43,556 nt of DNA from a virus. Position 1 is the first letter of the stretch. The number at the start of each line of letters is the position of its first letter. The stretch covers positions 1 through 43,556 of IMG/VR virus record IMGVR_UViG_3300035073_000011. The stretch is one strand, 5' to 3'. The notes beneath the pieces are model-generated. The model was not told the DNA's origin and searched no databases. It saw only the letters and a list, made by a program, of their open reading frames with translations. The position numbers and the translations under genes are program-made. Positions 7,914 to 41,210 of the stretch are shown one piece after another.

Positions 7914-7942
7914 TTGACACCAGCGCCGGGGCGTGGTATACT
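7914..7942 (+). promoter_or_regulatory. Sigma70 promoter, member of the repeated promoter family
   Basis: TTGACA at 7914-7919, a 17-bp spacer and TATACT at 7937-7942 with an extended -10 (TGG). This is the only + strand copy of a nine-member family. The -10 ends one base before the ATG of the 7944 gene, so RNA would start inside that gene. The promoter therefore probably serves the adaptor and tail genes downstream. Confidence 0.85.
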
Positions 7943-7943
7943 G

Positions 7944-8246
7944 ATGGCAGAATATAAGAGAACGTATCGAGACGACGGCGGTGTTCGCAGAACCTCGATA
8001 TGGGACGACGAAAGGCCTACTGAACTAACTGTTCACACTGAAGTGGACATGACACAGACGATCGAGAATAATAAGATCGTCAGGGAATTGCATCCCCGCA
8101 GGGGCACGAATAAGCTTTTAGCGCGCGGGGTTCCAATGACCGTCATGGAGCGTTCTATCCATGAGAATTGGGATGACGACGACTGGAAGCGTTGGCTAAA
8201 CGATCCAGAGAACGCCGCATTCCGAATTTGGAAAGGACGCGTGTGA
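7944..8246 (+). CDS. Conserved small structural-region protein
   Basis: 100 aa from the ATG at 7944. The C-terminal half contains a pattern I know from many phage structural modules: PMTVMERSIHENW followed by DDDWKRWLNDPENAAFRIW. Function is unknown. The ATG lies immediately after the -10 of the promoter, so this start can only be used on read-through transcripts. A TTG at 7914 is in frame but falls inside the -35 and would add an unconvincing N-terminus. Confidence 0.8.
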   Translation: MAEYKRTYRDDGGVRRTSIWDDERPTELTVHTEVDMTQTIENNKIVRELHPRRGTNKLLARGVPMTVMERSIHENWDDDDWKRWLNDPENAAFRIWKGRV

Positions 8247-8849
8247 ATGACTCCCCTTCAGGAACTAATCGGGACGATCCGTAGCTGGCTCGCTATCGAC
8301 CCCGAAATATACTCAGATGATATTGTTACTAGCTGGATTCGAATGTCAGAGGAGTATCTTTCGGAGGTACTCCGTTGTAAATATATGGTTCAGATCGACT
8401 GGATGAAACTGGTCGAGGGCCGTGTCGAGCTTCCTAAGGATTGGCTGGAACTTGATACGGTCCGATTTTACCCGCAAGGAAAGCCGCTTATTTGGGCACC
8501 TCGCGATGAGTACTATGTTCCGCAATATGATCTCAAGGGTCGATATACTATTATAGGTAATTATATACTGGTTGGCAAAGTTGACGTCACCGACGGAACG
8601 GACATCGAAATTTCGTATTACCAGCGCATTCCTCCGCTGGGCGACGAAACTACTTGGCTGTACCAGTTCAATCCTCGATTATTTACGCTAACAGCGTTGT
8701 GGCACGCTGCAGCATATTCTATTGAAGATTCTCGAATGCCGGTGTGGGTGGAATCCGTACAATCTATGGTGGATACTATCAATAATTCCAACAGATCGGC
8801 GGCTCACCACGGTTCTATCTTGGTTGCAAAACGCAGGAGCTTTGGATGA
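8247..8849 (+). CDS. Head-tail adaptor protein (SU10 adaptor-like)
   Basis: 200 aa. The N-terminal helical part (ELIGTIRSWLAIDPEIYSDD), the middle beta segment with RVELPKDWLELDTVRFYPQG and the C-terminal helix (LWHAAAYSIEDSRM) match the adaptor family that docks under the portal and joins it to the nozzle. The gene follows the upstream stop directly. Order relative to portal, capsid and fibre genes supports the call. Confidence 0.78.
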   Translation: MTPLQELIGTIRSWLAIDPEIYSDDIVTSWIRMSEEYLSEVLRCKYMVQIDWMKLVEGRVELPKDWLELDTVRFYPQGKPLIWAPRDEYYVPQYDLKGRYTIIGNYILVGKVDVTDGTDIEISYYQRIPPLGDETTWLYQFNPRLFTLTALWHAAAYSIEDSRMPVWVESVQSMVDTINNSNRSAAHHGSILVAKRRSFG

Positions 8850-9223
8850 GTGGTCTTTCGGACGCTGGCGAAACTATTGTACTCAATGCGCTACTCGCTG
8901 CGCGGTTCGTGTCGCTTCATATTGCTGATCCCGGTAACGCTGGGGCCGGCGAAGTGGCGGGCGGTTCTTATGCTCGCCAGAGCGCCTCGTTTGCGAACAC
9001 AGGAAGTAACCCTACGATCGCCGCGAACAGTGGCGTAATCCAGTTCCCGGTCGCTACGGCAGATTGGGGAACGGTCACCCATTTTGGTGTATGGTCCGCC
9101 TCTTCTGCTGGGTCATTTCTTGGTGGATGGCCGGTAACTACTCCGAAACGAGTGGATACCGATGATGTTGCAAGATGGGATTCGGGTAAGTTGCAGATAG
9201 CTACGGATGAGATGATACCGTGA
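8846..9223 (+). CDS. Tail-fibre-associated structural protein
   Basis: 125 aa, predicted all-beta. The segments VSLHIADPGNAGAGEVAGG and SYARQSASF, followed by a Gly/Trp-rich half (WGTVTHFGVWSA), recur in small phage tail proteins found next to fibre genes. The exact role is not known. It overlaps both neighbours by 4 bases. Confidence 0.7.
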   Translation: MSGLSDAGETIVLNALLAARFVSLHIADPGNAGAGEVAGGSYARQSASFANTGSNPTIAANSGVIQFPVATADWGTVTHFGVWSASSAGSFLGGWPVTTPKRVDTDDVARWDSGKLQIATDEMIP

Positions 9224-9732
9224 CAGGCGTTGGATCATTTTACGGCGCAGAAGACTATGGCGACGAACTATATTCTTGGAAAGAGAGTGTGGATTTTGAT
9301 GCCGTTAGTCAGATTGTTGTGTACGCCAGATCGCGGATCGGTGTTAGTTTTACTCTTAGTTCCGAATCGATTATTCAGTTTGACACTAATGCGCTGATCA
9401 TTCTAGTAGCGATTATGGAAGCCGATGCGAGTATTGCGTTCTACGCTCGCGCGCCGCTGGCTGGAGAGTTTGTACTCGAGTCTAGCGTTCACATTCCGTT
9501 TGACTATTACAGCGACGAGTTCCTTGGTTACCCGTGGGTTGGCTGGTTGCCTGAAACGCCGCCCGGCGAAAATTGGGTTCCTATTCCGCCCCCGATCGAT
9601 GGGTGGGCACCGATAATTAGCGCCGAGGGGCCGTGGGTGCCCATTCAACCATCTGGATTGTGGAATGCCGTTACTGGCGGTTCCGGTCCGTGGATTCCGG
9701 TAGGACCAGACAGGAGGCCAAACAGTGGCTGA
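9220..9732 (+). CDS. Structural protein with Trp/Pro-rich C-terminal repeats
   Basis: 170 aa. Residues about 105-170 contain five spaced repeats of the form (G/E)xWxPI: VGWLPETPP, NWVPIPPP, GWAPII, PWVPIQP and PWIPVGP. The N-terminal half is a beta-rich segment with no family recognised. It lies between the adaptor-linked proteins and the fibres, so it is probably a tail or baseplate component. Confidence 0.65.
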   Translation: MTGVGSFYGAEDYGDELYSWKESVDFDAVSQIVVYARSRIGVSFTLSSESIIQFDTNALIILVAIMEADASIAFYARAPLAGEFVLESSVHIPFDYYSDEFLGYPWVGWLPETPPGENWVPIPPPIDGWAPIISAEGPWVPIQPSGLWNAVTGGSGPWIPVGPDRRPNSG

Positions 9733-10015
9733 CACCTTAACCCCCGTTCATGCTCTTGTTAAGCCGGAGATTAGCGGCAGCGACGACACGTGGGGCAACA
9801 AATTAAACACTAACTTCGATAAGTTGGACGGGTTCTTCAAATCTGGATTCACTGATCGAATCCAACTAAAGAACGGCGCGAAGATAATTGAGTTCCGTAT
9901 CAACGCTACCGGCGATCTGGAGGTTTATTCTGACGCTACTAAAATAGCTGTTTTAACAATCGCGGGTAAGTTACAAGTTAATGGCGATATAGAGGCATTT
10001 ACGGGATTGGTATGA
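9725..10015 (+). CDS. Short tail-fibre protein
   Basis: 96 aa from a GTG start with a strong AGGAGG nine bases upstream. It begins with the fibre N-terminal motif HALVKPEISGSDDTWG then KLNTNFDKLD, which occurs again at the start of the 11730 gene. The remainder is a short beta-prism-like tail (DLEVYSDATKIAVLTIAGKL). It may be a stub fibre or a connector for the larger adhesin. Confidence 0.72.
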   Translation: MADTLTPVHALVKPEISGSDDTWGNKLNTNFDKLDGFFKSGFTDRIQLKNGAKIIEFRINATGDLEVYSDATKIAVLTIAGKLQVNGDIEAFTGLV

Positions 10016-21438: not shown

Positions 21439-24065
21439 TGGCTGAACAATACGACACCAAAAAGTTTCAGTATATTCAGGGTCCTGACAACGAGTACCAT
21501 GAATTTCCTGTAGATATGCCGGATGATCAAGTCGACGCCGAAATGGCGACCCGATATAAGGATTATCAAGCTCCGGTTGAAGTTCCCGACGTTCCCCTTC
21601 AGCCCGTTCCGCAAACGACTCCTTATCCTGAGGGTGATTGGAGAAATGACCCAAGGGTGCAGGCAGATGCAGCCGCAACTGTTAAGCTACTGGAATATGA
21701 CAAATCTCCGTGGTATCATTTTGATACGCCGCCCTCAGCAGAACCAACAGGTCCCATCGAGATACCGCCTGCCGGAACCAAGGGGAAGCGACGTGGGCAG
21801 TTGTTGCCGATAGAAGCGGACTACGTTACCGACGAAACCGGCAAGATGGTTAACACCGGTGATTGGAATTTTGCTGTTCCCGGAATAATACATGATATTC
21901 CGCAGCAGATTGAAACGCTCGGTTCTCACCAACTAGGCACGGAATATACCGACGACGAAATAGGCTCCATGTTGGGTCTAGCTGGTTGGGGCGTAGGTGG
22001 AGACGTTATTGCAGGCGTTGGCAGGGGAGCGAAAACCTTTGCTCCTGAAAAGATTAATAGGAACACCATATACGGCGAGTTGCAGGGTGAAATCAGTTCC
22101 CGCGCTGCTAAAGAGAAGGGAACTCCCAGAGCCACTATATTTAGGCAGGAAGTGGAGAATATTAAGAAAAAGTACGGCAAACAGATGAACCAAGAGCAGT
22201 TGAACAAACTGGATGATATTGTTCGACGCGGCGATACTATGTCTCGCAGAGCTATTGAGGGCGTTGCGGGCTGGAAGGGATTACCAATTGGATTTGATGT
22301 AGGGCTTGCAACTATTGCATCCTCAACGCTACCCATTAAGCCGGGTGTGGGTATAGGAATAATGGGGACCAGAGCCGCCTTTGGGGCGGGTTCCAAAATT
22401 GTCAAAGGCGTGGCAAAAGCAATTAGGGGCAACCGGCTTAAGAAAGATCTGCGGGACGTTAAGAATACTGTAACACTTAGGGGCAAGACCGGCAGGGTTA
22501 CCACCAGCAGCAAGATCAAAGCTGAAAGAGTACGCGATGATTTCCGAGATCATCCCGACACCGCTGTAAAATCTGGCAGGCAGCCGACCGAAGCAGAAAT
22601 AAATGCAACTACCACTCCTGACTACGTTCCGCCGACGCAACCGCGTCCTACCAGTCCCATTTCGCTGGGCGGGACTAAAATGAATATTGGTGAACCAGTA
22701 AGGAAAACAACGGGCACCGATCCAAGATGGTTGTATGATCAACAGCAAAAGCAACAGGCAGCAGCTGCAAGGGCTGAGGCAGATAAATTACGCGCCACGC
22801 CGAACGCGCAGCCGGTGCCGTCTGGTGGAACCGCTACTCCTATTCCTGAGAGATTTGCCAGCGGCGCTACTTCCCCGATACCCAAGGCCGCAGACTCAAC
22901 TATCCAAAAGTTGAAGGAAAGATTCTTTGGTGGAGGCGGAAAAGTAGTTAAGCCTCTTCCAAAAGCTAAGCCTTCGGGCGGTAAAGTTTCTCCAGATGAA
23001 ACTGTCAAATCTTCGGAAATCATAACGCACAAACAAAACGTGAAAAAATTGGCTGAAGCCCAGAAGGAAATGGCGGATGTCAAGAAGCTACCTCGCGGAA
23101 CAGACCGCGATGTAATGATGGATGCTATCCAGAAGCGTATTGACTCTTACGAAGAAAACATCGCTAGAGCGACTGGCCAACTACCTTCGCAAGCTAAGAG
23201 TGTCCTTTCGGAGGCTGAGCATAAAGCCATAGTGGACACCCCGCCAGAGTATCGCAGCTTAGAACAAAAATTAGAAATGGCGAAGAAAAAATATGACGAC
23301 GCTTCGCAGCTGGAAGATTCGGATGCACGCCATTGGGGTAGGGTTGACGCCCGAGTTGAAATAGGTGAGCTAGAAGCGGAAATAGCAAAAAGCAGATTAA
23401 CTCCTGAGGCAAAGGCGGCTCAGGAAAGGTGGGTTGAAACTCAAAGGTTGGCAGCTGAAGCCAAGAAGAACGCTCGTAGCCCACAATCCGTGTTGGACGA
23501 GCAAAAAGCTATAATGGATGTGGAAGAAGCAGTTGCGTCTACGGTGCCAAAGCCTGAGCCGGTCGTCAAACTTATGACTACCAATGCTCAACGCGCCGCA
23601 ATGAGGGAACGGGGTTATACCGACGATGACATGTTTACCATGTCGCCTACACAAATCCACAACATTCTATCTCAGACGCCAAGGGCAGCGCCGAAAACGA
23701 CCCGTGTCAAGAAGGCGGAAGTAGCGCCCCCGACGGAATTCGAACCCGTAATAAAGCAGTCTTCGAAGGGGGTGTCGCTTTCGGGGGTCGCTCCTAAGGA
23801 AACTGTCACAACTCCCAAACAACCGCGCGTGGCCAAGAAATCGGCGGCCAGAGCGGAGAGAATGACTAAGACGAAACGCGTAACTCAGACTGAGGCGAGG
23901 CTTGCCCAGAGAATGGCCGACGAGCTAGCCACTGAGGAAGGTGTTCAGGGCATTGCCGATTACGTAAATAGCCAGAAAAAAGGCGCTCCGCTGGAATTAG
24001 ACGTTCCCGCTAAGCCGAAGAGGCGATCTGGTAAGGCGTCTGGACGGGGGAAGCGCGTCTATTGA
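21438..24065 (+). CDS. Large ejection/internal virion protein
   Basis: 875 aa. The N-terminus has the motif EYHEFPVDMPDDQVDAEMA, common at the start of phage ejection proteins. A hydrophobic glycine-rich stretch (about 285-330, PVGIG-like repeats and GAGSKIVKGVAKAI) could insert into membrane. The C-terminal half is long, charged and coiled-coil-prone, ending in a basic tail (KPKRRSGKASGRGKR). It is the last gene of the late strand and overlaps the convergent helicase gene by 56 bases. Confidence 0.78.
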   Translation: MAEQYDTKKFQYIQGPDNEYHEFPVDMPDDQVDAEMATRYKDYQAPVEVPDVPLQPVPQTTPYPEGDWRNDPRVQADAAATVKLLEYDKSPWYHFDTPPSAEPTGPIEIPPAGTKGKRRGQLLPIEADYVTDETGKMVNTGDWNFAVPGIIHDIPQQIETLGSHQLGTEYTDDEIGSMLGLAGWGVGGDVIAGVGRGAKTFAPEKINRNTIYGELQGEISSRAAKEKGTPRATIFRQEVENIKKKYGKQMNQEQLNKLDDIVRRGDTMSRRAIEGVAGWKGLPIGFDVGLATIASSTLPIKPGVGIGIMGTRAAFGAGSKIVKGVAKAIRGNRLKKDLRDVKNTVTLRGKTGRVTTSSKIKAERVRDDFRDHPDTAVKSGRQPTEAEINATTTPDYVPPTQPRPTSPISLGGTKMNIGEPVRKTTGTDPRWLYDQQQKQQAAAARAEADKLRATPNAQPVPSGGTATPIPERFASGATSPIPKAADSTIQKLKERFFGGGGKVVKPLPKAKPSGGKVSPDETVKSSEIITHKQNVKKLAEAQKEMADVKKLPRGTDRDVMMDAIQKRIDSYEENIARATGQLPSQAKSVLSEAEHKAIVDTPPEYRSLEQKLEMAKKKYDDASQLEDSDARHWGRVDARVEIGELEAEIAKSRLTPEAKAAQERWVETQRLAAEAKKNARSPQSVLDEQKAIMDVEEAVASTVPKPEPVVKLMTTNAQRAAMRERGYTDDDMFTMSPTQIHNILSQTPRAAPKTTRVKKAEVAPPTEFEPVIKQSSKGVSLSGVAPKETVTTPKQPRVAKKSAARAERMTKTKRVTQTEARLAQRMADELATEEGVQGIADYVNSQKKGAPLELDVPAKPKRRSGKASGRGKRVY

Positions 24066-25437: not shown

Positions 25438-25828
25438 GGATTGGCGTCCCTTCAGGTGTATTTCTCCAATCGGCGTGGCCTTGATTGCGCAGCGCCACGA
25501 ATATAAGAAAGGCAAAGTTAGCTGTGTCGAACAACTCGATCAGCGTGTTTACGTCTTCCCTGTTTTGCTCAAACTGGTCCACAAACTCCTTTAGTTCCAC
25601 CCGGAGCATTTCGGTCATGCTCGGTATGTCGGTTATTTCGGGGGTGCGCTTATGCGCGTTCATGTGGAGCTTGTATACCATCCCCTGAAAGAACTCTCGC
25701 AGCCGCTCCGAAAGGAGTTCCAGCGACGGCGGGATCTCAACGGATAATGTAGATGTCTTCCGATTTAGGCCCTTGACCCGCAACAATGCCAAAGCTTCCT
25801 GCGCCTGCGATGTCGAATAGGAACTCAT
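25430..25828 (-). CDS. MazG-like nucleotide pyrophosphohydrolase, candidate MazZ
   Basis: 132 aa. An all-alpha NTP pyrophosphohydrolase is indicated by ExxE (E78-E81) and ExxD (E98-D101), with the family segment MVYKLHMNAHKR (50-61) ahead of them. In Z-genome phages MazZ turns dGTP into dGMP for PurZ, and the location next to purZ supports that role. The chosen ATG has GGAG seven bases upstream, so the gene truly overlaps purZ by 92 bases in another frame. A general house-cleaning pyrophosphatase is the alternative. Confidence 0.82.
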   Translation of the reverse strand: MSSYSTSQAQEALALLRVKGLNRKTSTLSVEIPPSLELLSERLREFFQGMVYKLHMNAHKRTPEITDIPSMTEMLRVELKEFVDQFEQNREDVNTLIELFDTANFAFLIFVALRNQGHADWRNTPEGTPIHD

Positions 25829-26762: not shown

Positions 26763-27147
26763 TAATCTCCTTCAAGGCTTCCGCAACTGCGCTTTCCACT
26801 TTTTCAACAGCATTGTTGCTGCTAGGATCGAACGGGCGATCGGGTAATTGCATCATACCAGCGAGAGCGGCGTAACCAATGCTGTCGACGAAGTTATCTC
26901 GGTTGGCGGGATCGCCGTAGACAGATCGGGCAATCTTCAACATCTCCATCATTCGCGCCACGTCGTGCGGCCTAACCTCTACGGAGTCGCCGCGACAAGC
27001 AAACACGTGGCCCAAGTAAGATGTCCACAAATCAGCTATCATTTGGAACGAATTTTCGGCGTGGCCGTGAAGACCTGGGCGTTCCTTGCTGATGGTATTC
27101 CCGGCCTTAACTATTAGTTCTACAGCTTTTCTCAAGTCACTACTCAC
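26737..27147 (-). CDS. DUF6378-family protein
   Basis: 136 aa, helical. The pattern HGHAENSFQMIADLWTSYLG (about 27-46), then PHDVARMMEMLKIARS and DNFVDSIGYAALAG (about 82-95) matches the DUF6378 family as I remember it. The spaced acidic residues (E31, D84, D88) in helices recall MazG-type pyrophosphohydrolases, but the function has not been shown to my knowledge. It overlaps purZ and the VRR-NUC gene, so a role in nucleotide supply is a reasonable inference. Confidence 0.75.
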   Translation of the reverse strand: MSSDLRKAVELIVKAGNTISKERPGLHGHAENSFQMIADLWTSYLGHVFACRGDSVEVRPHDVARMMEMLKIARSVYGDPANRDNFVDSIGYAALAGMMQLPDRPFDPSSNNAVEKVESAVAEALKEINGEENAVQ

Positions 27148-27544: not shown

Positions 27545-27783
27545 CGGTTGTCATCCGCTTGGAAGTCGCCCAGTTGCACCTTGCGATACCACCAATCCGT
27601 TACCTTGAACATGAAGTTCCCGTCGCCATCGCTTTCGTTATGGTCGACTGTACACTTCACAGGCAGCCAATACATATAATGATCTTCGTACAAGGGGATT
27701 GTGACTTCAATCAGCCGGGACTTATCGTTAGACCAGCGGATCTTGCCTTCGAATTCGTGTGTCTCTTCGTTGCGCACTGTCAT
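27541..27783 (-). CDS. Small conserved replication-region protein
   Basis: 80 aa, beta-rich and acidic, with the segments RNEETHEFEGKIRWSNDKSR and KVTDWWYRKVQLGDF. No family is recognised. GGAGGT lies immediately before the ATG, but the promoter at 27790-27818 places the transcription start at about the ATG itself. The gene may thus be read from a leaderless RNA or, on longer transcripts, from the Shine-Dalgarno. Confidence 0.7.
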   Translation of the reverse strand: MTVRNEETHEFEGKIRWSNDKSRLIEVTIPLYEDHYMYWLPVKCTVDHNESDGDGNFMFKVTDWWYRKVQLGDFQADDNR

Positions 27784-27789
27784 ACCTCC

Positions 27790-27818
27790 AGTATATCACG
27801 CCGCGACCGGGCTGTCAA
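27790..27818 (-). promoter_or_regulatory. Sigma70 promoter of the repeated family, inside the polymerase gene end
   Basis: On the - strand TTGACA lies at 27813-27818, the spacer is 17 bp and TATACT is at 27790-27795 with an extended -10 (TGA). It overlaps the last codons of the polymerase gene and would start transcription of the 27783 gene, VRR-NUC, DUF6378, purZ, MazG-like and helicase genes as a unit. Confidence 0.9.
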
Positions 27819-29604
27819 GGGTAGCTTCGTACCGATCTAGTTTCGAGCCGTAAGAGGCTCTAGCCCAATCTGAACCACTGCCCACGTCGAATGGAATGGG
27901 CACCATCAGCTTGAACTCCGTGGCCACGTTTTCCAGCAGGTTTACCAGCTCCGTATTCGGGTGACCGGGGTCGCGCTGCCATAGTACGGAGTCGTGGATC
28001 GACAGCAGCATCTGAATACGATCGGAGTAAGTGTCCTCGTATTGGAACGCTCGCAGCATGCAAGTCTTTATATGGTCGCCACCAGAATTCTGAATGATGC
28101 GGCTAACAGCGCGATAAGAATACGCAATATCACCGCACCTAGCAATACGCCCAAGTATAGAGCGAACATAGCGCTGATCCTTGAACTTCGCGACTGCGGC
28201 GAGCTGGAATTCGCGTATCGCCGGGAAAGCGTCGTGTAGAAACTGGTTATGTAGCTTAGCTGCCTCTGCAACTGAGCACCTCATGTGGTTCGCCAGCGTC
28301 TTCGCCGACATCATGGTGAGCATTCCCATACCAAGTCGCTTGGCCCGGTCACGATCACCCAAGCCCAAGACTTCGTTTGCACGATCGTGAATGTCGAACT
28401 CTCCTGTGCGATATCCGTGTAAGAGACTTGCATCTTCGGAATAATGAGTAAACAGTCGCGGCTCTTGCTGTCGAGCGTCTGCTTCCTCAAGTAGCATACC
28501 TTCATCAGGGACAATAAGTCGGCGTACGACCCTTCCCACGTCCATGTTCCTTTTTGGAAATGCCTGGAGATTCGGATCCGAACAGGAAAGTCTTGCTCCT
28601 GCAACTCCATAGTCATCGGACTTTGATTGGTTAAGAATTGGGTGTACTCGTCCTCCAATGTTATGCGTATCGATGAGGGGGGACATGAATGAGTCACGTG
28701 CCTTCTCCAATCTCCGTACCGAAAGGATAGCCTCCCCGATTTCGTTAGTCTCCAGCCAGCTTTCGGTGAAGGAAGCCGTCCCCTTATCGGTGTGGTTGAA
28801 CATGGCGTCGTCGTAGCCGTTCGCCCGGTAGAGGGCTTCCACCTCCTTGCCAGACCGAGCGTTGAATCCCGCTGAGAAGACGCTGAGCTTCTCCTTGATC
28901 GCCACGTTGATTTCATCGCGGACGCGTGAGGCGTATTCCCCATCAACGCGCAATCCGCGATGGTGCATCCTAGCTAGGTACGGAATAAGATCGCATTCCA
29001 GCTTGTGCACCTTCCGCAGCCCCATTTCGTCCAGTAGAGGCTGTTGCGCCTCCCACAGCGCCAGCGTCGTAATACCGTCGCCCGTGGCGTATTCCACCAC
29101 AGTTGGGTCGTCGCCCGGCATCTTCCAAAAATTCTTCATCTGCTTCTGGTCAGGCAGTCCCCCGAAACGCCGGGCCAGTTCCGCATACATGGCGGCTCCC
29201 TTCTTTCCAGGGAGTCCCCGTCTTTCGGCGCAGGCTTCGAGGCTGTATCCGACGGTGAGATCGTTGATGAGGGCTTCATTGACCATTGTGTCTTCGACAG
29301 GGGCGGTGATCTGTACATTGCAACGAAGAGAAATGCGAAGATCAAAGCCCAGATTATGGCCGACAGTAGTAAAGCCCAGGCGACCCCTCTCCAGAAACGC
29401 CACGGCAAGTGACTTCTCCCATTCTTCGGCGTTGGGAATGTTGCCTCCGCCCTCGTGCCGAACCGGGACGTATAGCGAATGCGATTTATCGGTGATAACC
29501 CATCCGACGACTTTATCTGTGACGGTGAGTCCGGTGGTTTCCGTATCGAATGCCATGATAGGCGCTTCGCGTACGATTTTGAGCGCAAGTTCTGGATCAA
29601 TCAT
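27796..29604 (-). CDS. dpoZ: Family A DNA polymerase, DpoZ-type
   Basis: 602 aa, with a 3'-5' exonuclease and a polymerase domain and no 5' nuclease. Exo I has D20/E22 (FDTET), Exo II VGHNLGFD (D88), Exo III YATGD (D176). Polymerase motif A is EADARQQEPR (D376, E381), motif B R418-x3-K422 and motif C IHDS (D538). Positions equal to Pol I F762, Y766 and E883 are Met426, Thr430 and Ser539. In Z phages the cognate polymerase favours dZTP over dATP; the purZ neighbourhood suggests this role here. Confidence 0.88.
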   Translation of the reverse strand: MIDPELALKIVREAPIMAFDTETTGLTVTDKVVGWVITDKSHSLYVPVRHEGGGNIPNAEEWEKSLAVAFLERGRLGFTTVGHNLGFDLRISLRCNVQITAPVEDTMVNEALINDLTVGYSLEACAERRGLPGKKGAAMYAELARRFGGLPDQKQMKNFWKMPGDDPTVVEYATGDGITTLALWEAQQPLLDEMGLRKVHKLECDLIPYLARMHHRGLRVDGEYASRVRDEINVAIKEKLSVFSAGFNARSGKEVEALYRANGYDDAMFNHTDKGTASFTESWLETNEIGEAILSVRRLEKARDSFMSPLIDTHNIGGRVHPILNQSKSDDYGVAGARLSCSDPNLQAFPKRNMDVGRVVRRLIVPDEGMLLEEADARQQEPRLFTHYSEDASLLHGYRTGEFDIHDRANEVLGLGDRDRAKRLGMGMLTMMSAKTLANHMRCSVAEAAKLHNQFLHDAFPAIREFQLAAVAKFKDQRYVRSILGRIARCGDIAYSYRAVSRIIQNSGGDHIKTCMLRAFQYEDTYSDRIQMLLSIHDSVLWQRDPGHPNTELVNLLENVATEFKLMVPIPFDVGSGSDWARASYGSKLDRYEATLDSPVAA

Positions 29605-30496: not shown

Positions 30497-30777
30497 CCTA
30501 CTTTCTGGGCGAAGTAGCCCGTTTGCTCTTTGTCATGTCGTATTATGTGACAATTAGCGCATAAAACGTCGCACTTTGCTATTTCTGCGCGTATTGTGTT
30601 CCAAGTTCGGTTAGACGATACTAGTTTACCGATATTACAACCGTTATCGCGGTGATGAAATTGCAATACAATCGGATTTTTGACACCGCAATCAACACAA
30701 CCGGTATCCGATTTGATTGCGAGCAGCCTTTGTTTGTGCTCTTCCCGCATAGTTTGGTGGTATAGCTTCAGGCTCAT
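30493..30777 (-). CDS. HNH endonuclease, paralogue of the 119 gene
   Basis: 94 aa. CVDCG (near 27), VLQFHHRDNG (near 37) and CANCHIIRH (near 76) give the same HNH zinc layout as the gene at 119. Both end in a TG(F/Y)F(G/A)Q(A/K)V tail and both overlap the start codon of the next gene. The ATG overlaps the upstream stop (TAATG). It sits inside a replication operon, consistent with a free-standing homing-type nuclease. Confidence 0.88.
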   Translation of the reverse strand: MSLKLYHQTMREEHKQRLLAIKSDTGCVDCGVKNPIVLQFHHRDNGCNIGKLVSSNRTWNTIRAEIAKCDVLCANCHIIRHDKEQTGYFAQKVG

Positions 30778-31271
30778 TACTTAACTTTCGTAATGCTTGT
30801 ATACGGAGACGTGCTAACTTTGAAGATCGAGTCGGGCAGTTCCGCGCCGGACTCTTCCAGCATCGACTTGGCGAAAGCGGAGAGCGTCGAGCTATTCACT
30901 GTCTCGATGATGATTCCGCCGTGCCCATTTCCGCGCAGCCATTCCAGTCCCTGCTCTTTGTCCAGCATCGTGCAGCCAAATCTGTAGGAGACAGTTACAC
31001 GCCCTACTCCCTCGATTGTGGTTGTCTTAATTCCCTGCTCGCGGAATATGTCAGGGATCTGCTCGCGGGACAGCTTCTCCTCCATTTCATTGAGGGCTTC
31101 ACGCGCCTCTTTGATTTGGGCAGTCGCTAGTCTGAGGTGATTGTAGTGCTTGATCAGCTTGACGTGGTTGTGCTCTGCGAGGACAAAATCATTATCCTCC
31201 CGCACCATTTCGGCCACTTTTTGCAGCTGGAAGCAGATCTCATTTACGGCTGATACTGTATCTTCTTGCAT
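30777..31271 (-). CDS. Conserved phage protein with coiled coil
   Basis: 164 aa. A helical N-terminal part (about 30-75, KEAREALNEMEEKLSREQIP) precedes a beta-rich half with VEGVGRVTVSYRF-like strands and the ending FKVSTSPYTSITKVK. The family is common in phage replication modules, and I know no assigned function. The first gene downstream of the promoter at 31316-31344, with a 38-nt leader. Confidence 0.72.
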   Translation of the reverse strand: MQEDTVSAVNEICFQLQKVAEMVREDNDFVLAEHNHVKLIKHYNHLRLATAQIKEAREALNEMEEKLSREQIPDIFREQGIKTTTIEGVGRVTVSYRFGCTMLDKEQGLEWLRGNGHGGIIIETVNSSTLSAFAKSMLEESGAELPDSIFKVSTSPYTSITKVK

Positions 31272-31315
31272 TTACTTGCTCCGTGTTCTACGCCCGGTCG
31301 TCTGACCGTCTTGAT

Positions 31316-31344
31316 AGTATACCACGGGGCGGGGCAGCTGTCAA
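31316..31344 (-). promoter_or_regulatory. Sigma70 promoter of the repeated family
   Basis: TTGACA (31339-31344), a 17-bp spacer and TATACT (31316-31321) with TGG extended -10, read on the - strand. The predicted RNA 5' end (about 31309) coincides with a CGGTC-loop-GACCG hairpin at 31295-31308. It serves the 31271, HNH, 30496 and polymerase genes. Confidence 0.92.
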
Positions 31345-31582: not shown

Positions 31583-32011
31583 TTAGAACTCGCTGTCAGT
31601 TACGGCCTCACCGGCCTTACCCTCACGGGCTTTGGCGGCGGCACCCGAAAGCACCGGCTTTGCCAGTTCGATCGGGGTCTCTTCGTCATTCAGGCCGATT
31701 GCTACACCGGTCTTCCTGACATTGGTTGCGATCATATTGCGGATCGTCATTCTCGCCCGGCCTTGCGAACCGTGGCGCTTTTCGGCGACCTGACCGCGAT
31801 ACTTGTCGACCTGTTCCTGCGAGACGCCGTTTTTCAGCGCCAGCTCGAAGAACGCCTCGTATTCGAATCCTTCCTTGCCCTTGCACTGGGCATTGATGAA
31901 CTCGGCGAGCGCGTCGGAACCGCCGGCCTTGTAACGGCCCGCGTAACGAGCAGGAACTATCGACTTGGTTGCCTTGACTTCCTTGACTTCAGTCTCTGCT
32001 TGGTCACTCAT
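31583..32011 (-). CDS. Paralogous family protein, copy 1
   Basis: 142 aa. It holds a domain shared with the 35721 and 42681 genes: SIVPARYAGRY near residue 18, LKNGV near 58 and the hallmark QGRARMTIRN near 84. The C-terminus is acidic (GEAVTDSEF). AAGGAG precedes the ATG on a 26-nt leader from the 32044 promoter. Function unknown; an acidic tail in a replication region could point to a DNA-associated or SSB-like role, but there is no direct evidence. Confidence 0.75.
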   Translation of the reverse strand: MSDQAETEVKEVKATKSIVPARYAGRYKAGGSDALAEFINAQCKGKEGFEYEAFFELALKNGVSQEQVDKYRGQVAEKRHGSQGRARMTIRNMIATNVRKTGVAIGLNDEETPIELAKPVLSGAAAKAREGKAGEAVTDSEF

Positions 32012-32043: not shown

Positions 32044-32072
32044 ATCATACCACGTGGCGACGGGGCTGTCAA
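32044..32072 (-). promoter_or_regulatory. Sigma70 promoter of the repeated family
   Basis: TTGACA (32067-32072), a 17-bp spacer and TATGAT (32044-32049) with TGG extended -10 on the - strand. Upstream of the -35 is the block AAAGTATAC seen also at 34763. It lies between the primase-helicase stop and the 32011 gene. Confidence 0.9.
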
Positions 32073-32093: not shown

Positions 32094-34631
32094 TCAGAAC
32101 TTTCCATAGATCGTCTCTTTCCTGCCTTTCCACAGCGGGCGTAGCTTTATAGTGCATTCATTTTTCCCGTGATCGTCGGCAGTGAACTGAAACCTAGGCT
32201 CCATAACCACCGAAATAGCAGCCCCAAATTTATCGTGGATGGTGGCTATCTTATCCGTGAATCGAATGTAGTTTCGGCCTTCCTCCGTATATGTTTCGAT
32301 GATGCCAGCGTCCTTGAACTCAGTCATTACACGCATTCCGTTGATTGGCTGCATGCCTAGTTCACGGCACACCTCGACTACCCTGCGGTTAAGGTCAGCC
32401 GGGACCCACGGGAATGATAGGTCTAGATCTTCGTGAATTCGCCCGTCTTCGATTATGTACTTCGCTACCCGCCTCGCCCACGACATGTTCGAAGCGATGA
32501 TGTCGGAATCGTTGCTGGCGGAATGATCGATTGACTCCACTTCGGTCTTGGTAACCGACATAGTGGAGAAATAATGCATATAATGCTCCATTACAGTTCG
32601 ACTTTTTATAAATTCGTCTAGTTCGATAAACCACGGCTTCAATCCAGCTGCCCACTGTCTAAATTCGTTCTCGCTTAGATGAAGAAAGTCCTTGTCGTAC
32701 GCCTTTATATAAAACAGCGCCCGGTCCTGTACGTTCTGCTGACCTATGTTCATGTCCAGTCTGTTGCTGGCGAACATCAGGCGGGCGTGTATTCGGTAGT
32801 TCCGTGCGGATATGTACTTTTCGGATCCTGACACGTCAATGTTACGTATCAGCTTCTTGATCTCTTCCGTGCTGGAATCCCCCTTAAATCGCGCCTCGTC
32901 CATGAACACAAACATCTTGTCGACGAACGGTTCGATACTGAACGCTCCATCTAGTAGCTTCGGTGACGCTGACCCCCACAACCCGTGAAAAAGCGATTGC
33001 ATAAATGTATTGCCCAGAAACGATTTCCCAACTCCCTGCCCACCGATGATAACAGGCGCTACTTGTTGTTTCGTACCGGGGTGCTGAATTATCCACGCGA
33101 TCCACCTTTTCAGCCATGTGGCTTGGTTTTCGTTGTTTCGTGTCAGATAGCCAAACAGCTTATCTAGGTATTCTTCACACTTTTGTAAAATCTCTGGCTT
33201 CACTACCTCGGGGACCGAAAGGGGCCAGCCCCGCCATGTGTTGAACATAGCTAGCGCGGTTTTATTCTCGTCACTGTCAGGGATAACTTCTCCGATATTC
33301 GTGATTCGATAAATTCCTCCTGGCCCAAGGTCAGGGTATAAGTCTCTTCCGCCAACCCTTTTCCTGAGAGTGGATGATTCAAAAATTTTGAATGCTTCCT
33401 TAGGTTTCCCGCCAACTCTAATAATATCACCCTTATGTCTTCGTTCAAGCTCGTGTCCTTCGTGGACGTATCTTCCAGCAGAACTAAATCGCACTCGATC
33501 GAGATAGTTATTGTCTGATTCGTCATACAGGTACCTTTCGGCGAAATTGGTGAGCAGAGAAACGTCGGAACCCGGCATGAACACCGCGCGCAGCGCCATT
33601 ATCGCATCAACGCCGAAATACTGCTCCATCGCTGGCCAGCCGGGGATCTTCGCGTCGGGGTTCCGGTCCAGCTTTTCGCAGGCGTCGTGGAACGCGCGGA
33701 TTCGCATGTGCTTTTCGTCGTCGGACATGAAATCACATATGAACCCGATCAGGGATTCGGCTATGTCGTCTGTGTCGACGGGACAAAATACGTCCTCGGA
33801 AATGACTTCGTGGTTGTTAACGGACTGACCTTCTCGCACAACACGAGCAAGCCATCCCGCGACTTTTTGGGCGGCAACTTGGCGATTACCTTCCAGCCAG
33901 TGGTTTCGGACCACATAAGCCATCGTCCCGAAAGCAATCGCACGTATAACCTCGTTGAAGGAGACTCTTCTTGGAGTAGTCGCTGCAACCTCATTAAAGC
34001 TCTTCGCTGGACTGTTGTACTTATCGTACCAGACGGAAAGATCATAGACCCCCTCTTCATCCTTGCTCTTGTAAATGGAACCCGGCATGACCGTTTGTTT
34101 TGCTGCCTTGGCCACGTTCTGCGCTGTGATGTTCGTCGGGTACGATCGCAGCTGCGTGTGAAATAACTTGCCGCCTAGTTTGAACTGCTTTGGCTCAAAT
34201 TTAACCAATGTGTCCCAGTTTACTGATTCGTTCTCCCCAAGTTGAACCATCACGTGGGTTGGGATCTTCATCGACGCGCGCCCAAATCGGAACCGCGTAT
34301 CTATATGAAGATGGTCCATCGCCGAAAGGATACACTGGTTGTATTCTGGGTCGTCGGAATCAATGTCAACGTCCATCCAGCCTAGCTGAAGGTTGAAGCC
34401 AGCGTTGGTGAAGCGAGCTTCCTCGTCGTCGATCCAATTCTGCAAGTCCGTGTCGTGGAACTTTGATTCGTACCACTTGGAGTCGAATGGACTCTTGTCG
34501 CTGGTCTTAAGGAAGACCGCGCCCACCTGTATGAAATTGTCGTTGATGTGTTTCGTGATCGCTCGTTGGGTGTTCAGTATGGCTTCGTCAGACGATTTGA
34601 GGACGAATCCCCCCTCGATCTTTTTGAACAC
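32094..34631 (-). CDS. PrimPol-SF3 helicase (primase-helicase)
   Basis: 845 aa. The N-terminus is an archaeo-eukaryotic primase: GWMDVDIDSDD with D87/D89 and RASMKIPTH with H126. The C-terminal half is an SF3/D5-type helicase: Walker A GGQGVGKS (530-537), Walker B FVFMDEA (574-580) and SNRLD after it. It would prime and unwind for the phage replisome. The start is GTG at 34631 with AGGGG upstream, on a leader of about 100 nt that folds strongly (34651-34725). It is the first gene from the 34740 promoter. Confidence 0.9.
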   Translation of the reverse strand: MFKKIEGGFVLKSSDEAILNTQRAITKHINDNFIQVGAVFLKTSDKSPFDSKWYESKFHDTDLQNWIDDEEARFTNAGFNLQLGWMDVDIDSDDPEYNQCILSAMDHLHIDTRFRFGRASMKIPTHVMVQLGENESVNWDTLVKFEPKQFKLGGKLFHTQLRSYPTNITAQNVAKAAKQTVMPGSIYKSKDEEGVYDLSVWYDKYNSPAKSFNEVAATTPRRVSFNEVIRAIAFGTMAYVVRNHWLEGNRQVAAQKVAGWLARVVREGQSVNNHEVISEDVFCPVDTDDIAESLIGFICDFMSDDEKHMRIRAFHDACEKLDRNPDAKIPGWPAMEQYFGVDAIMALRAVFMPGSDVSLLTNFAERYLYDESDNNYLDRVRFSSAGRYVHEGHELERRHKGDIIRVGGKPKEAFKIFESSTLRKRVGGRDLYPDLGPGGIYRITNIGEVIPDSDENKTALAMFNTWRGWPLSVPEVVKPEILQKCEEYLDKLFGYLTRNNENQATWLKRWIAWIIQHPGTKQQVAPVIIGGQGVGKSFLGNTFMQSLFHGLWGSASPKLLDGAFSIEPFVDKMFVFMDEARFKGDSSTEEIKKLIRNIDVSGSEKYISARNYRIHARLMFASNRLDMNIGQQNVQDRALFYIKAYDKDFLHLSENEFRQWAAGLKPWFIELDEFIKSRTVMEHYMHYFSTMSVTKTEVESIDHSASNDSDIIASNMSWARRVAKYIIEDGRIHEDLDLSFPWVPADLNRRVVEVCRELGMQPINGMRVMTEFKDAGIIETYTEEGRNYIRFTDKIATIHDKFGAAISVVMEPRFQFTADDHGKNECTIKLRPLWKGRKETIYGKF

Positions 34632-34739: not shown

Positions 34740-34768
34740 AGTATACCACGCCGGGTGGCGGCTGTCAA
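34740..34768 (-). promoter_or_regulatory. Sigma70 promoter of the repeated family
   Basis: TTGACA (34763-34768), a 17-bp spacer and TATACT (34740-34745) with TGG extended -10 on the - strand, preceded by AAAGTATAC. It is the closest match to the family consensus and drives the primase-helicase leader. Confidence 0.92.
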
Positions 34769-35583: not shown

Positions 35584-35761
35584 CGCGCTTGTCCTTTTCT
35601 TTTAATTCATCGCGTATTCCTACGAGATCGAAAGTGGTAAATAAACTGAGCAAGTAAGTGACGGCGGAACCAGGTTGGGGGAACCGCCTTGCGAGCTGTT
35701 CCCCCACCTCCACCATCAGATCAAGCTTCAGCTCCTTCGGCGGAACTATTCGCTTTTTCAT
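35546..35761 (-). CDS. Small unrecognised protein
   Basis: 71 aa with a basic N-terminus (MKKRIVPPKEL) and a charged C-terminal half. The ATG has AAGGGG six bases upstream. It overlaps the 35721 gene by 41 bases and the 35583 gene by 38, so three genes are interlaced. No family is recognised. Confidence 0.68.
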   Translation of the reverse strand: MKKRIVPPKELKLDLMVEVGEQLARRFPQPGSAVTYLLSLFTTFDLVGIRDELKEKDKRDDIQSRIDRQKH

Positions 35762-36494
35762 TTTTCCCCTTTGGTGCCTTTGCCGCCAGCCATTCCGGAT
35801 CGGCTTCCCACTTGTCGTTCAGTCCGTCGATGTTCGGGATCAGGATGAACCCGGCTCGAACCACCACCGCCTTCAGGAGGTTGCGGCCCGTCATTCTGAG
35901 CCTCCCCTGCCAGCCGTTCGTCGTGCGGTTGTACTTTTCGAGGCTCACGCCGTTCGCGTTACAGATCGACTCGAACCGGATCAAGTCCGTCTCTTTCTCG
36001 CCCACGCACTGCTCGTTCAGCAGGTTGGCGAGCCAGTCACCGCAATGGGTTGGGTGTCCCATTTCGGCGTAGCGGGCGCGGTATTCCGGCTTCACCACAG
36101 ACCCCGTGGGTTCCGGCTCCTCTTCGTCCGCTGCCGCGTCCCACTCCTCGTTCCAGCGCACGAAGTCGTCGTATTCGTCCTCGTTCTCGCTGTCGTAGGG
36201 GCAATCAGCCGCTGCGAACTTCTGGTGGTAGGCTTCGCCCCCGTCTTTGGGAACCTCTGTTGGCATCAGTGTGCTTATGTCGACGTCTTCCATCGTGGGG
36301 ACAAACTTGGACTCCACTTCCCCGTTCCTGATCTGTTCCTGCATTACGATCATTCGCTCGATCGCTTCATTCGGCGTGGAACCGATGGTGGTTGCGCCGT
36401 GTTCCGGCCAGAACGCTTCGATCTGGTCGTCCTTTTCGGTGAGCATGACGCCGATCTTCGCCGCCTTTTTCACTTGTGTGTGATGTATTCCCAT
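35721..36494 (-). CDS. Paralogous family protein, copy 2, with acidic N-terminal extension
   Basis: 257 aa. Residues about 1-130 are an acidic, Trp-containing extension (DSENEDEYDDFVRWNEEW). The shared domain follows: SVVKPEYRARY near 131, GDWLANLLNEQC near 152, NANGVSLEKY near 178 and the hallmark QGRLRMTGRNLL near 196. The tail is Lys/Ala-rich. GAGGAG precedes the ATG on a 33-nt leader from the 36534 promoter. Function unknown. Confidence 0.75.
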   Translation of the reverse strand: MGIHHTQVKKAAKIGVMLTEKDDQIEAFWPEHGATTIGSTPNEAIERMIVMQEQIRNGEVESKFVPTMEDVDISTLMPTEVPKDGGEAYHQKFAAADCPYDSENEDEYDDFVRWNEEWDAAADEEEPEPTGSVVKPEYRARYAEMGHPTHCGDWLANLLNEQCVGEKETDLIRFESICNANGVSLEKYNRTTNGWQGRLRMTGRNLLKAVVVRAGFILIPNIDGLNDKWEADPEWLAAKAPKGKNEKANSSAEGAEA

Positions 36495-36533: not shown

Positions 36534-36562
36534 AGTATAGCACGGCGCTGTCCGTCAGTCAA
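36534..36562 (-). promoter_or_regulatory. Sigma70 promoter of the repeated family
   Basis: TTGACT (36557-36562), a 17-bp spacer and TATACT (36534-36539) with TGC extended -10 on the - strand; this copy alone departs from TTGACA in the -35. The RNA 5' end (about 36527) falls at a GTAGC/GCTAC hairpin (36513-36527). Confidence 0.88.
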
Positions 36563-36570: not shown

Positions 36571-37197
36571 TCAGAATTTGTCCAGTATTTCAGTTTCTGC
36601 TCCTTTCAGCGCGTTACTGCTGCTGAGAAGCGACTCCGGTCCTGAATGGAACCATAGTTCAGGGTCGTTCCCATCTAGGTCTTGGTAATACCAGCCGTGT
36701 CGCATTTGTTCGGTTTCAGTCTCTTCCTGATCAAACCACTTAATTACAACGCGATGCGAATATTCGCACTGTTCCGGCTTCAACACGTGGACTCCTTCGT
36801 CCCGGTTCTTCCTTTTCGCCGGTACGGTTTCTTTGTCTGGTTGTTTTCTCCAGTTATCATCAGGAAGCTTTACCTCAGGGTTATTCGATACCTTAGCTAC
36901 TTTCATTGACGCTTCCTCAGTGAGGTAACGCCGTATGAACACCTCGCGGCCCAGAACCTCCAGTTGCTTTCTGACCGCTTTATAATGAACGGAATGCGGG
37001 TTATAAATATGCGCCACAGTTCGACGATCGATACCGAACGCGGCTGCCAGCACCCGCCTGTGAACCCCACTGAGGTAACAAGCGAGCACTGAACAGCGTT
37101 CGTCGAATGTGAGCTTAGGCTCGAACCGCCCCGACCCCCGAAAAATGTGAGGGTACTTACGCAGTTCGTCCATGATCTCTTCGACGGTTTTGGTCAT
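36571..37197 (-). CDS. Helix-turn-helix DNA-binding protein
   Basis: 208 aa. Residues about 30-65 form a helix-turn-helix: FDERCSVLACYLSGVHRRVL followed by AAAFGIDRRTVAHIYN. The C-terminal part is acidic with Trp/Tyr (HGWYYQDLDGNDPELWFH). It is the only clear HTH regulator in the window and ends just before a promoter of the repeated family, so it is a candidate to control these promoters. It overlaps the upstream acidic gene by 4 bases. Confidence 0.8.
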   Translation of the reverse strand: MTKTVEEIMDELRKYPHIFRGSGRFEPKLTFDERCSVLACYLSGVHRRVLAAAFGIDRRTVAHIYNPHSVHYKAVRKQLEVLGREVFIRRYLTEEASMKVAKVSNNPEVKLPDDNWRKQPDKETVPAKRKNRDEGVHVLKPEQCEYSHRVVIKWFDQEETETEQMRHGWYYQDLDGNDPELWFHSGPESLLSSSNALKGAETEILDKF

Positions 37198-37418
37198 TTT
37201 TCCTCTTCTTCCTCCGTTTCGTCGTCTTCTACTTCGATGTCGTCTTCATCGAAATAGGCCACTCCACCCTGTCCGGCAGCGATTGCGTCCTCCAGTTCGG
37301 ACACTTCGACGCCAGCGCCCGATGCCGCTTCGTCCGCGTCCAGACCCACGAAGACCTTTCCATCGGCGTCTTCAAGGGTGTACGTTTCGCCGGTCTGCGT
37401 AACTTTTACGGTTCCCAT
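37194..37418 (-). CDS. Small very acidic protein
   Basis: 74 aa. The N-terminal part is beta-like (VKVTQTGETYTLEDADGKVF) and the C-terminus is almost pure Asp/Glu (DEDDIEVEDDETEEEEEK), a DNA-mimic-like or charge-mimic composition. GAGG precedes the ATG. No family is recognised. It shares the 37464 promoter with the HTH gene. Confidence 0.72.
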   Translation of the reverse strand: MGTVKVTQTGETYTLEDADGKVFVGLDADEAASGAGVEVSELEDAIAAGQGGVAYFDEDDIEVEDDETEEEEEK

Positions 37419-37463: not shown

Positions 37464-37492
37464 ATTATAGCACACCGCGTGTACGGTGTCAA
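37464..37492 (-). promoter_or_regulatory. Sigma70 promoter of the repeated family
   Basis: TTGACA (37487-37492), a 17-bp spacer and TATAAT (37464-37469) with TGC extended -10 on the - strand: a full consensus promoter. It drives the acidic 74-aa protein and the HTH gene. Confidence 0.93.
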
Positions 37493-39191: not shown

Positions 39192-39200
39192 TTCTGCCTG

Positions 39201-39386
39201 TTACTTAGTCTCCGAAAGGTTCACATAGGCGTCGAGGTTCGTGTTGGTTAGGCGCACGCCATTCATAAACGGCACCTCCACGAGGTTCGGGTATCGCTCG
39301 TGGAATTCGTCGATTCGCGCCCACGCGCGCTTCTTGTATTCCGCCTTGGATTCGCCAGCGGTTCGGCCGGTCATTGACTTTATCAT
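39201..39386 (-). CDS. Unrecognised early-region protein
   Basis: 61 aa, basic N-terminal half (AEYKKRAWARIDEFHERYP) and a beta-like C-terminus (NGVRLTNTNLDAYVNL). CGGAGAC lies 7 bases before the ATG. First gene of the 39426 promoter, with a 33-nt leader. No family is recognised. Confidence 0.7.
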   Translation of the reverse strand: MIKSMTGRTAGESKAEYKKRAWARIDEFHERYPNLVEVPFMNGVRLTNTNLDAYVNLSETK

Positions 39387-39425
39387 GTTTGTCTCCGTTT
39401 GTTGGGCGGGTTGGCCCGCACACCG

Positions 39426-39454
39426 AGCATAGCACGGCGCGCGGGCGCTGTCAA
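39426..39454 (-). promoter_or_regulatory. Sigma70 promoter of the repeated family
   Basis: TTGACA (39449-39454), a 17-bp spacer and TATGCT (39426-39431) with TGC extended -10 on the - strand. The RNA 5' end (about 39419) coincides with a GCGGG/CCCGC hairpin (39406-39419). Confidence 0.88.
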
Positions 39455-39461
39455 GTCCTGC

Positions 39462-39692: not shown

Positions 39693-39695
39693 GTT

Positions 39696-39977: not shown

Positions 39978-40009
39978 TTTTGTCTCCGTTTGGTTGGCTT
40001 CATCAGTAC

Positions 40010-40050
40010 GGGCATAACCCGCAGAGGCGAGGGAGTCGGACCCCCGCCTT
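40010..40050 (-). promoter_or_regulatory. Repeated structured RNA element, copy B
   Basis: Hairpin 1 (40026-40050) has 8 base pairs plus one A-C mismatch and the loop TCCGACT (- strand); hairpin 2 (40010-40022) is CGGG-loop-CCCG with the loop TTATG also seen in copy A. It begins 10 bases after the stop of the 40060 gene. Confidence 0.75.
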
Positions 40051-40059
40051 TCTGCCTGT

Positions 40060-40344: not shown

Positions 40345-40517
40345 TCGCTTATCCACTCGTCGCGCCACGCGCTTACTGTGATTGGCTCGTCTTCCGCCGT
40401 GGTAGCGAAGGGCAGCTGCCTTCTCTTGTATTCGACCAGCGCCACTTCGATGCAGGCGAACAACTCCTCGGGTTCAGTCGGTCCTTCGAACTGTATTCCA
40501 ACCCATATCTTCGTCAT
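40341..40517 (-). CDS. Small acidic protein (58 aa)
   Basis: ATG at 40517, one base after the upstream stop, and TGA at 40341 overlapping the next ATG. The product begins MTKIWVGIQFEGPTEPEELF and ends SAWRDEWISE. It is acidic and helical. The translational coupling on both sides supports it as a real gene. No family is recognised. Confidence 0.75.
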   Translation of the reverse strand: MTKIWVGIQFEGPTEPEELFACIEVALVEYKRRQLPFATTAEDEPITVSAWRDEWISE

Positions 40518-40736
40518 CTATTCCTCCATGGTGAAGTCGTTGATCGTGATTGCGTGCTGTTCGCCTGTCTCGTAGTCTTCGACGCTGGCGATTTCGACGC
40601 TGTTGTCACGCAGCGAAATGAGACCGTGCATAACACACTCCACGGCATCTTCGCGCGTCATTCCAGGCGGGGTGGTTCCCATACCGAAAGTGATAGTCAG
40701 TTTCAGCTGGAATTCCGTGCCTGTGTCTTCAGTCAT
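40518..40736 (-). CDS. Unrecognised early-region protein
   Basis: 72 aa with a beta-like N-terminus (FQLKLTITFGMGTTPPG) and an acidic helix (REDAVECVMHGLI). A 4-base overlap links it to the upstream gene. No family is recognised. Confidence 0.7.
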   Translation of the reverse strand: MTEDTGTEFQLKLTITFGMGTTPPGMTREDAVECVMHGLISLRDNSVEIASVEDYETGEQHAITINDFTMEE

Positions 40737-40993
40737 TTAAACCTCCTGTGATTAGCGTGCTTTTCGAGCCATTCGCCAAATGAAGTGATTTCTCTATTCG
40801 GGTGTTCGATTTTATGTGAACGAAGTAATCCACGCAATACGCTCACGTAGGCGGAATCACCCGCATGACGAAACACGTAGTAATCGTGCCACTTCTTGTA
40901 TTTTTCTAGTTCCTTCGAGTCTTTTGACCACGCCGAAAGATGACTACTTATTTCAGCGCGCAAAATTTTTATTAATTCTTCATCTTCGGTCAC
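40733..40993 (-). CDS. Unrecognised basic/acidic helical protein
   Basis: 86 aa, helical and highly charged (ELIKILRAEISSHLSAWSKD, EKYKKWHDYYVFRHAG), with a basic C-terminus. It overlaps both neighbours by 4 bases. No family is recognised. Confidence 0.7.
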   Translation of the reverse strand: MTEDEELIKILRAEISSHLSAWSKDSKELEKYKKWHDYYVFRHAGDSAYVSVLRGLLRSHKIEHPNREITSFGEWLEKHANHRRFK

Positions 40994-41148
40994 TTTGTCC
41001 TCCTGATTCGCTCGTTCAGCCGCTCCTTTGCGTAATGCGCTTCATCGCGCGCCACCTGAAGATCGAATTCCAGTTCGCGTATTCGCTGTTCTAGCTGCTT
41101 GATGTACTCCTCTTTACGTTTACGGTATGCGGCGTAACGACTTTGCAT
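40990..41148 (-). CDS. Small coiled-coil protein
   Basis: 52 aa from the ATG at 41148, which has GGAGGAAG seven bases upstream; a GTG at 41178 lies in the promoter region. Strong heptad-like helix (KRKEEYIKQLEQRIRELEFD, LNERIRRTK). First gene of the 41182 promoter. No family is recognised. Confidence 0.75.
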   Translation of the reverse strand: MQSRYAAYRKRKEEYIKQLEQRIRELEFDLQVARDEAHYAKERLNERIRRTK

Positions 41149-41181
41149 TGCTTCCTCCGTTGGGCGCGTGGTGCGCACACC

Positions 41182-41210
41182 AGTAAAGCACAGCAGGGCG
41201 CTACTGTCAA
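41182..41210 (-). promoter_or_regulatory. Sigma70 promoter of the repeated family
   Basis: TTGACA (41205-41210), a 17-bp spacer and TTTACT (41182-41187) with TGC extended -10 on the - strand. The -10 is the weakest of the family. A GCGC/GCGC hairpin at 41164-41176 marks the RNA 5' end. Confidence 0.8.

Follow-up and report, generated by a model that had tools for sequence, protein, structure and literature searches.

Promoters read by sigma70 (RpoD) RNA polymerase follow a 'mix and match' logic of elements (PMC2613000), and the extended -10 class carries a TGN motif upstream of the -10 hexamer. Here we describe a family of nine predicted promoters of this general type in a 43,556 bp viral genome record (IMG/VR IMGVR_UViG_3300035073_000011, analysed whole and referred to as the window). 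They resemble sigma70 extended -10 promoters in having a TTGACA -35, a 17 bp spacer and TGN one base before TANNNT, and differ in that the TG is essentially obligatory and preceded by G (GTGN) and the spacers are GC-rich; because near-consensus hexamers are also kept, the TG adds to the -35 rather than replacing it. We regard the sites as a variant of known sigma70 promoters, and from sequence comparison it is likely that they are host-sigma70 promoters adapted to work on DNA containing base Z, an interpretation that the comparison among phages supports.

Among named phages the nearest is the Ochrobactrum podovirus vB_OspP_OH (Wolominvirus; PolA 58%, PurZ 51%, primase 55%, terminase 60%), hereafter OH, which has the same two-arm layout as the window. 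Its promoters, which are not mentioned in the describing paper (PMC7139368), have the same layout and gene order, with 14 TTGAC-N17-TGN sites and TG in 8/8 near-consensus sites. Their upstream block is weaker, and their spacers, at 0.70 GC, are less extreme. The Z phages related to phiVC8/VP2 and to SH-Ab 15497, together with ZP6 and BUCT555, also have near-consensus TG-extended promoters, mostly with 17 bp spacing and with spacers mostly GC-richer than their flanks. They differ from the window in their other blocks (an upstream TGYAAY in phiVC8 and the spacer sequence CCCAAYCTATGG in SH-Ab and PSA28), and therefore are not copies of one promoter.

All nine sites proposed in the initial annotation are present, one on the + strand and eight on the - strand, its minus-strand coordinates giving the base at which the -10 ends. 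The strict pattern TTGAC[AT]-N14-TGN-T[AT]NN[CA]T, searched on both strands, matches nine times in the window, compared with 0.02 on average and never more than 1 in 200 order-3 Markov genomes. Both the spacing of exactly 17 bp and the extended -10 TGN are borne out at 9/9 sites, and no comparable TG-extended sites with spacings of 14-16 or 18-21 bp were found in the window. The spacer had been described as ending in GTG at all but one site; instead GTGN precedes the -10 at every one. The described GC-richness of the spacers is real, with 69-100% GC in their first 13 bases against a genome GC of 53%, and the upstream block of the (G/T)AA(A/G) type is found at eight of the nine sites, the exception being 7914, where ACAG stands. 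The hexamers score 10-12/12 at seven of the eight right-arm sites, the eighth (TTTACT) lying outside the rule of that scan, and a broader scan places all nine at >=10/12, so that the sites have the near-consensus hexamers at 16-18 bp and the TGN that characterise sigma70 extended -10 promoters. A weight matrix trained only on sites from related genomes, with the window excluded, recovers these nine, with scores of 28.9-42.9 bits. The next-ranked site in the window reaches 4.0 bits; on random genomes the 95th percentile is 13.1 bits and the maximum 20.5 bits. Given this clean gap and the random-genome ceiling, the family is complete at nine.

Eight of the sites point leftwards in the early/replication arm. 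The best (34740-34768, -, 42.9 bits, GAAA block) precedes the primase-polymerase gene (32094-34631), and its position is conserved in relatives, as are those of the sites at 32044-32072 (-, 40.5 bits, TATGAT -10, GAAA block), before open reading frame (ORF) 31583-32011, and at 31316-31344 (-, 37.9 bits, GAAG block), before the DUF7307 gene 30777-31271. The site at 27790-27818 (-, 37.7 bits, TTGACA-N17(GTGa)-TATACT, GAAG block) overlaps the 3' end of polA and is kept at that place in most relatives. Two sites depart in their hexamers: 36534-36562 (-, 28.9 bits, TTGACT -35, GAAG block), before ORF 35721-36494, and 41182-41210 (-, 29.6 bits, TTTACT -10, TAAA block), before ORF 40990-41178. The site at 37464-37492 (-, 37.3 bits, GAAG block) is a perfect TTGACA/TATAAT match (12/12) before ORF 37194-37418 and a helix-turn-helix (HTH) gene, and that at 39426-39454 (-, 35.2 bits, TATGCT -10, TAAG block) precedes ORF 39201-39386. 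The ninth, at 7914-7942 (+, 37.9 bits, TTGACA-N17(cGTGg)-TATACT, without the [GT]AA[AG] block), points rightwards in the structural arm from the gap before ATG 7944.

Several of these sites have unusual relationships to the adjacent reading frames. At the 7914 promoter (7937-7949, +), ATG 7944 begins two bases past the -10, so the predicted start falls within the first codons of that gene, and the first complete gene downstream would be the SU10-type adaptor (8247-8849). At the polA end (27783-27818, -) the stop codon of polA supplies the TG(A) of the extended -10, and the predicted transcript would begin at ATG 27783; in several relatives the start codon of the next gene overlaps the -10 (TAAAATG), so that the gene would not be readable whole from this promoter. 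A short hairpin (CGGTC-AGAC-GACCG, approximately 31290-31310, -) coincides with the expected transcript start of the 31316 promoter, and relatives have hairpins of differing sequence at the same place, suggestive of compensatory change. A hairpin at the start of every transcript was considered and rejected, as the mean folding z is -0.1 over 126 sites and hairpins occur at some loci only.

Searches with PolA and primase identified about 80 related contigs, which carry family promoters at orthologous early places, including those before the primase, a 142-aa ORF and the DUF7307 gene, the polA end, and others. Whole records of these relatives contain 3-15 pattern matches, against 0-1 for the reversed pattern. 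A logo built from 111 non-redundant family sites reads [GT] at -45, A at -44, A at -43 (1.07 bits), [AG] at -42, C at -36, TTGACA, G at -29, a GC-rich spacer, [CT]GTGN and TANNNT. The A-rich pair near -44/-43 is reminiscent of UP-element promoters, but the family has no A-tract: the bases between the block and the -35 can be GGGG or TATA, no A/T tracts were found at -59 to -38, where only [GT]AA[AG] at -45 to -42 is enriched, and the logo information is at most 0.16 bits from -75 to -46.

The family is more than a good sigma70 consensus. When compared with 123 random IMG/VR phage sites sharing CTTGACA-N13-GTGNTATACT, the upstream block is present in 55% of family sites and in 4% of the random ones, and spacer versus flank GC is 0.76 versus 0.53 in the family and 0.37 versus 0.37 in the random set. 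Because the random same-core promoters lack both the upstream block and the GC-rich spacer, we reject a generic consensus as the full explanation. PurZ is present and linked to PolA in every relative whose contig extends to that locus, and no PurZ-less family member was found among them; as Z and lineage are thus confounded within the family, the contrast was drawn from other lineages.

For this contrast, near-consensus sites were identified by a TG-blind scan (hexamer score >=11/12, spacing 16-18 bp, no TG requirement). Across nine proteobacterial phages with PurZ, the TG is present at 56 of 59 such sites (window 6/6, OH 8/8, phiVC8 6/6, ZP6 6/6, BUCT555 8/8, VibK300 8/9, SH-Ab 5/6, PSA28 4/4, VLCpiS6a 5/6). 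A further 83 PurZ+ IMG/VR loci from outside the family have TG in 106/118 sites, at 0.86 sites per 10 kb, and in 40/40 at GC >0.55. By contrast, 89 PurZ-less loci anchored on PolA or terminase, for 55 of which the absence of PurZ was confirmed over the whole record, have TG in 2/20 sites, at 0.13 per 10 kb. The difference in TG use (Fisher p 8e-13) and the approximately 6.5-fold higher density in PurZ+ loci (p 5e-10) are estimates of effect size, because the sampling was opportunistic. Near-perfect promoters in TG-blind samples of random phages have the TG in 37-41% of cases at all GC levels. Among loci with at least three sites, the mean TG fraction is 0.92 with PurZ and 0.38 without (p 1.6e-14), and spacer minus flank GC is +0.12 and -0.015, respectively (p 2e-11). 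At -16 the preferred base is G in all Z+ lineages (55-89%) and A in control phages. When PurZ loci are collapsed at 55% identity, 12 clusters contain sites; TG predominates in 9 of them, two are evenly split, and the only site of the remaining one is without TG. No account of Z-phage promoters was found in the open-access papers to which our search was limited, and as far as that literature shows the association is unreported.

Phylogenetic and host comparisons point the same way. In a terminase tree of 19 phages the Z+ phages are polyphyletic, with five changes, three of them forced by well-supported branches: the Z- phages P26218 and ctfPj form the sister group of the window and OH (99/99); Z- Tlacuache clusters with SH-Ab, PSA28 and VLCpiS6a (93/97); and Z- ct3Et533 and rhizobial phages fall in a group with BUCT555, ZP6, phiVC8 and VibK300 (81/93). 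In these three contrasts, TG-extended promoters are found on the Z+ side and none at >=11/12 on the Z- side, where P26218 has one TG site at 10/12. On this tree, at least three contrasts show TG use tracking the predicted presence of Z. Among phages of a single host genus, Stenotrophomonas, BUCT555 (Z+) has the TG in 11/11 sites and QH3 (Z-) in 0/9, the latter with 9 sites against 1.7 expected; the Z- Pseudomonas phage PaMx42 has TG in 0/8, and its 8 sites against 1.4 expected indicate that it does use such promoters. No TG-extended near-consensus sites were found in Z- phages of Rhizobium and Bradyrhizobium. The initial annotation had held that equal conservation in phages without base Z would undo the Z explanation; on inspection, unrelated PurZ+ lineages converge on near-consensus TG-extended promoters with GC-rich spacers, and PurZ-less relatives and same-host phages lack this design.

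The upstream and spacer motifs are not the same from one Z+ lineage to another, which favours convergence over the copying of one promoter. The promoters of phiVC8 and Vibrio phage K300 share TG(T/C)AA at approximately -46 to -42, the position of the GAAR block in the window with a different sequence. The spacer block CCCAAYCTATGG is common to those of Acinetobacter SH-Ab 15497, PSA28 and VLCpiS6a, and a spacer GTCA to those of Microbacterium phage Theresita; both could possibly be operators of lineage-specific regulators. The Z- Septimatrevirus phages PaMx42 and QH3 have a family of their own, TTGACA-N17, often CG-ended before TANNNT, with no TG.

The mechanism that we propose starts from the chemistry of Z. 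According to PMC3711457 the purine 2-amino group controls minor-groove width and makes Z:T resemble G:C there, and PMC8342488 (citing Feklistov and Darst 2011 on -10 recognition) reports that sigma factors are sensitive to A-to-Z substitution. The extra 2-amino group of Z would project into the minor groove and would also be present on two unpaired bases, -11 and -8, that sigma region 2 reads, and would weaken -10 binding and opening and the help given by minor-groove elements (A-tract, UP-type). Major-groove contacts to TTGACA and to the extended -10 TG would be unaffected and might be pushed to their maximum, so that Z phages would regain from them what the -10 and A-tracts lose. The resulting promoters would combine near-consensus -35 and -10 hexamers 17 bp apart with a GTGN that is always required and a spacer rich in GC, and would depend little on A-tracts. 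In the window, the nine sites would be read by the host housekeeping sigma70-type RNA polymerase, with eight of them driving the early/replication arm as a series of units. Their places ahead of early genes and their conservation in relatives lend indirect support to transcription starts predicted about 7 nt past the -10. It had been suggested earlier that strong host-polymerase promoters offset the harder melting of Z-containing DNA; the offset agrees with the PurZ association across lineages, and the data do not single out melting over lost minor-groove and -10 recognition, which our proposal adds. We think it reasonably probable that Z genomes follow a promoter rule of their own, with independent proteobacterial Z-phage lineages having converged on TTGACA-N17-GTGN-TATAAT with a GC-rich spacer because the 2-amino group weakens -10 and minor-groove readout.

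PurZ (2-aminoadenylosuccinate synthetase), a marker of base Z synthesis, is encoded at 25737-26762 (-; PHROG 1211, E=4.9e-56; 51% identity to OH PurZ), as is characteristic of a Z-DNA phage, and replacement of A by Z in this virus is likely. Several observations weigh against the Z interpretation. No match to the DatZ dATPase was found in the window using OH, phiVC8 or S-2L DatZ queries, and without a recognisable DatZ full substitution is unproven; OH and six of the relatives do have a homologue, unlike the window (24010-27147 region). The effect on spacers is modest at the level of PurZ clusters (p 0.017), and loss of the benefit of an A/T-rich minor groove would account for neutrality of spacer GC, not for its enrichment. 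Actinobacterial and cyanobacterial Z phages fit the pattern less well: S-2L and Archimedes, from other host phyla, have zero sites at either threshold, Theresita has zero at >=11 and TG in 6/7 at >=10, and Bennie is mixed (2/4 TG). Of the PurZ-less loci with three or more sites, 6 of 95 use TG uniformly; their spacers are not GC-rich, and no PurZ was found in the whole records of those six. Finally, all PurZ loci are correlated with one replication-module type. As a separate matter, the presence of PurZ without DatZ may mean that another enzyme removes dATP, or that Z replacement is partial.

Among other explanations, a phage regulator, the second idea raised in the initial annotation, is possible but doubtful. 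A protein binding the [GT]AA[AG] block (approximately -45 to -42), perhaps the 208-aa HTH protein (36571-37197, -; PF13518, E=2.4e-4, below cut-off), would coordinate the nine promoters as an activator or repressor. The block is family-specific, as the comparison with random sites shows, and lies at a fixed distance from the -35; the phiVC8 and K300 sites have another block at the same place; and most relatives with a contig spanning the region have the HTH gene, DRRT(V/I)THIYN being its best conserved segment. However, the block is only about 4 bp long and not palindromic, the preference for A at -43 extends to the phiVC8 group (84%) and, less strongly, to controls (44%), as expected for contacts of the RNA polymerase alpha or sigma subunit, and the relatives' matrix finds zero further whole-site copies in the window. 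No link between the HTH protein and the block was found. Such a regulator could also act on top of an adaptation to Z.

A rather unlikely explanation is that PurZ+ phages, being small and virulent and without a sigma factor or RNA polymerase of their own, need maximal host promoters whatever their base, and among the Z- controls there are phages that may depend on regulators, on phage-encoded RNA polymerases or on a temperate programme. However, in the clear promoter families of PaMx42 and QH3, both Z-, the -35 matches and the spacing is mostly 17 bp, yet TG never occurs, and the near-perfect promoters of random phages use the TG at the frequency given above.

Less likely still is a need of this phage group's hosts, inherited from a common ancestor and unrelated to Z. 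The hosts are probably Rhizobiales, judging by kinship with the Ochrobactrum phage; a C in front of TTGAC, together with hexamers close to consensus, is in keeping with alphaproteobacterial RpoD promoters, and all family members are PurZ+. The TG and GC-rich spacer design is, however, also seen with other motifs in PurZ+ phages of Vibrio, Alteromonas, Stenotrophomonas, Acinetobacter and Klebsiella, and the Z- phages of Rhizobium and Bradyrhizobium lack it. It is very improbable that the sites are repressor stoperators as in cluster A mycobacteriophages (GGTGGMTGTCAAG, which share CTTGACA/TGTCAAG), since, although the reverse-complement core CTTGACAGCC resembles a stoperator and has five matches at 1-2 mismatches, that number is within chance (1.6 expected; 5/100 shuffles reach 5), CTTGACA outside promoters is near chance (6 copies, approximately 4 expected) and in the structural arm, and no repressor/integrase module was recognised in the window, so that a stoperator array is largely refuted.

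The window also encodes a family A DNA polymerase with a 3'-5' exonuclease (PolA, 27796-29604, -; PF00476, E=8.3e-44), a SNF2-type helicase and a DUF6378 protein. No near-identical phage was found in GenBank, and an Rfam search gave no matches. The products of ORFs 31583-32011, 35721-36494 and 42681-43208 (-) have a common C-terminal GW/GS-GRxRMT-N motif with cross-matches in relatives and look like paralogues; two of them lie directly downstream of a family promoter.

If the nine sites are indeed host-sigma70 promoters adapted to Z, a genome-wide change of base would leave a readable signature in regulatory sequence. To the question of how host RNA polymerase handles all-Z DNA the comparison offers a testable answer, compensation through major-groove contacts, that may be of use in designing expression systems for Z-DNA and as a sequence test for true Z use by a PurZ+ virus.

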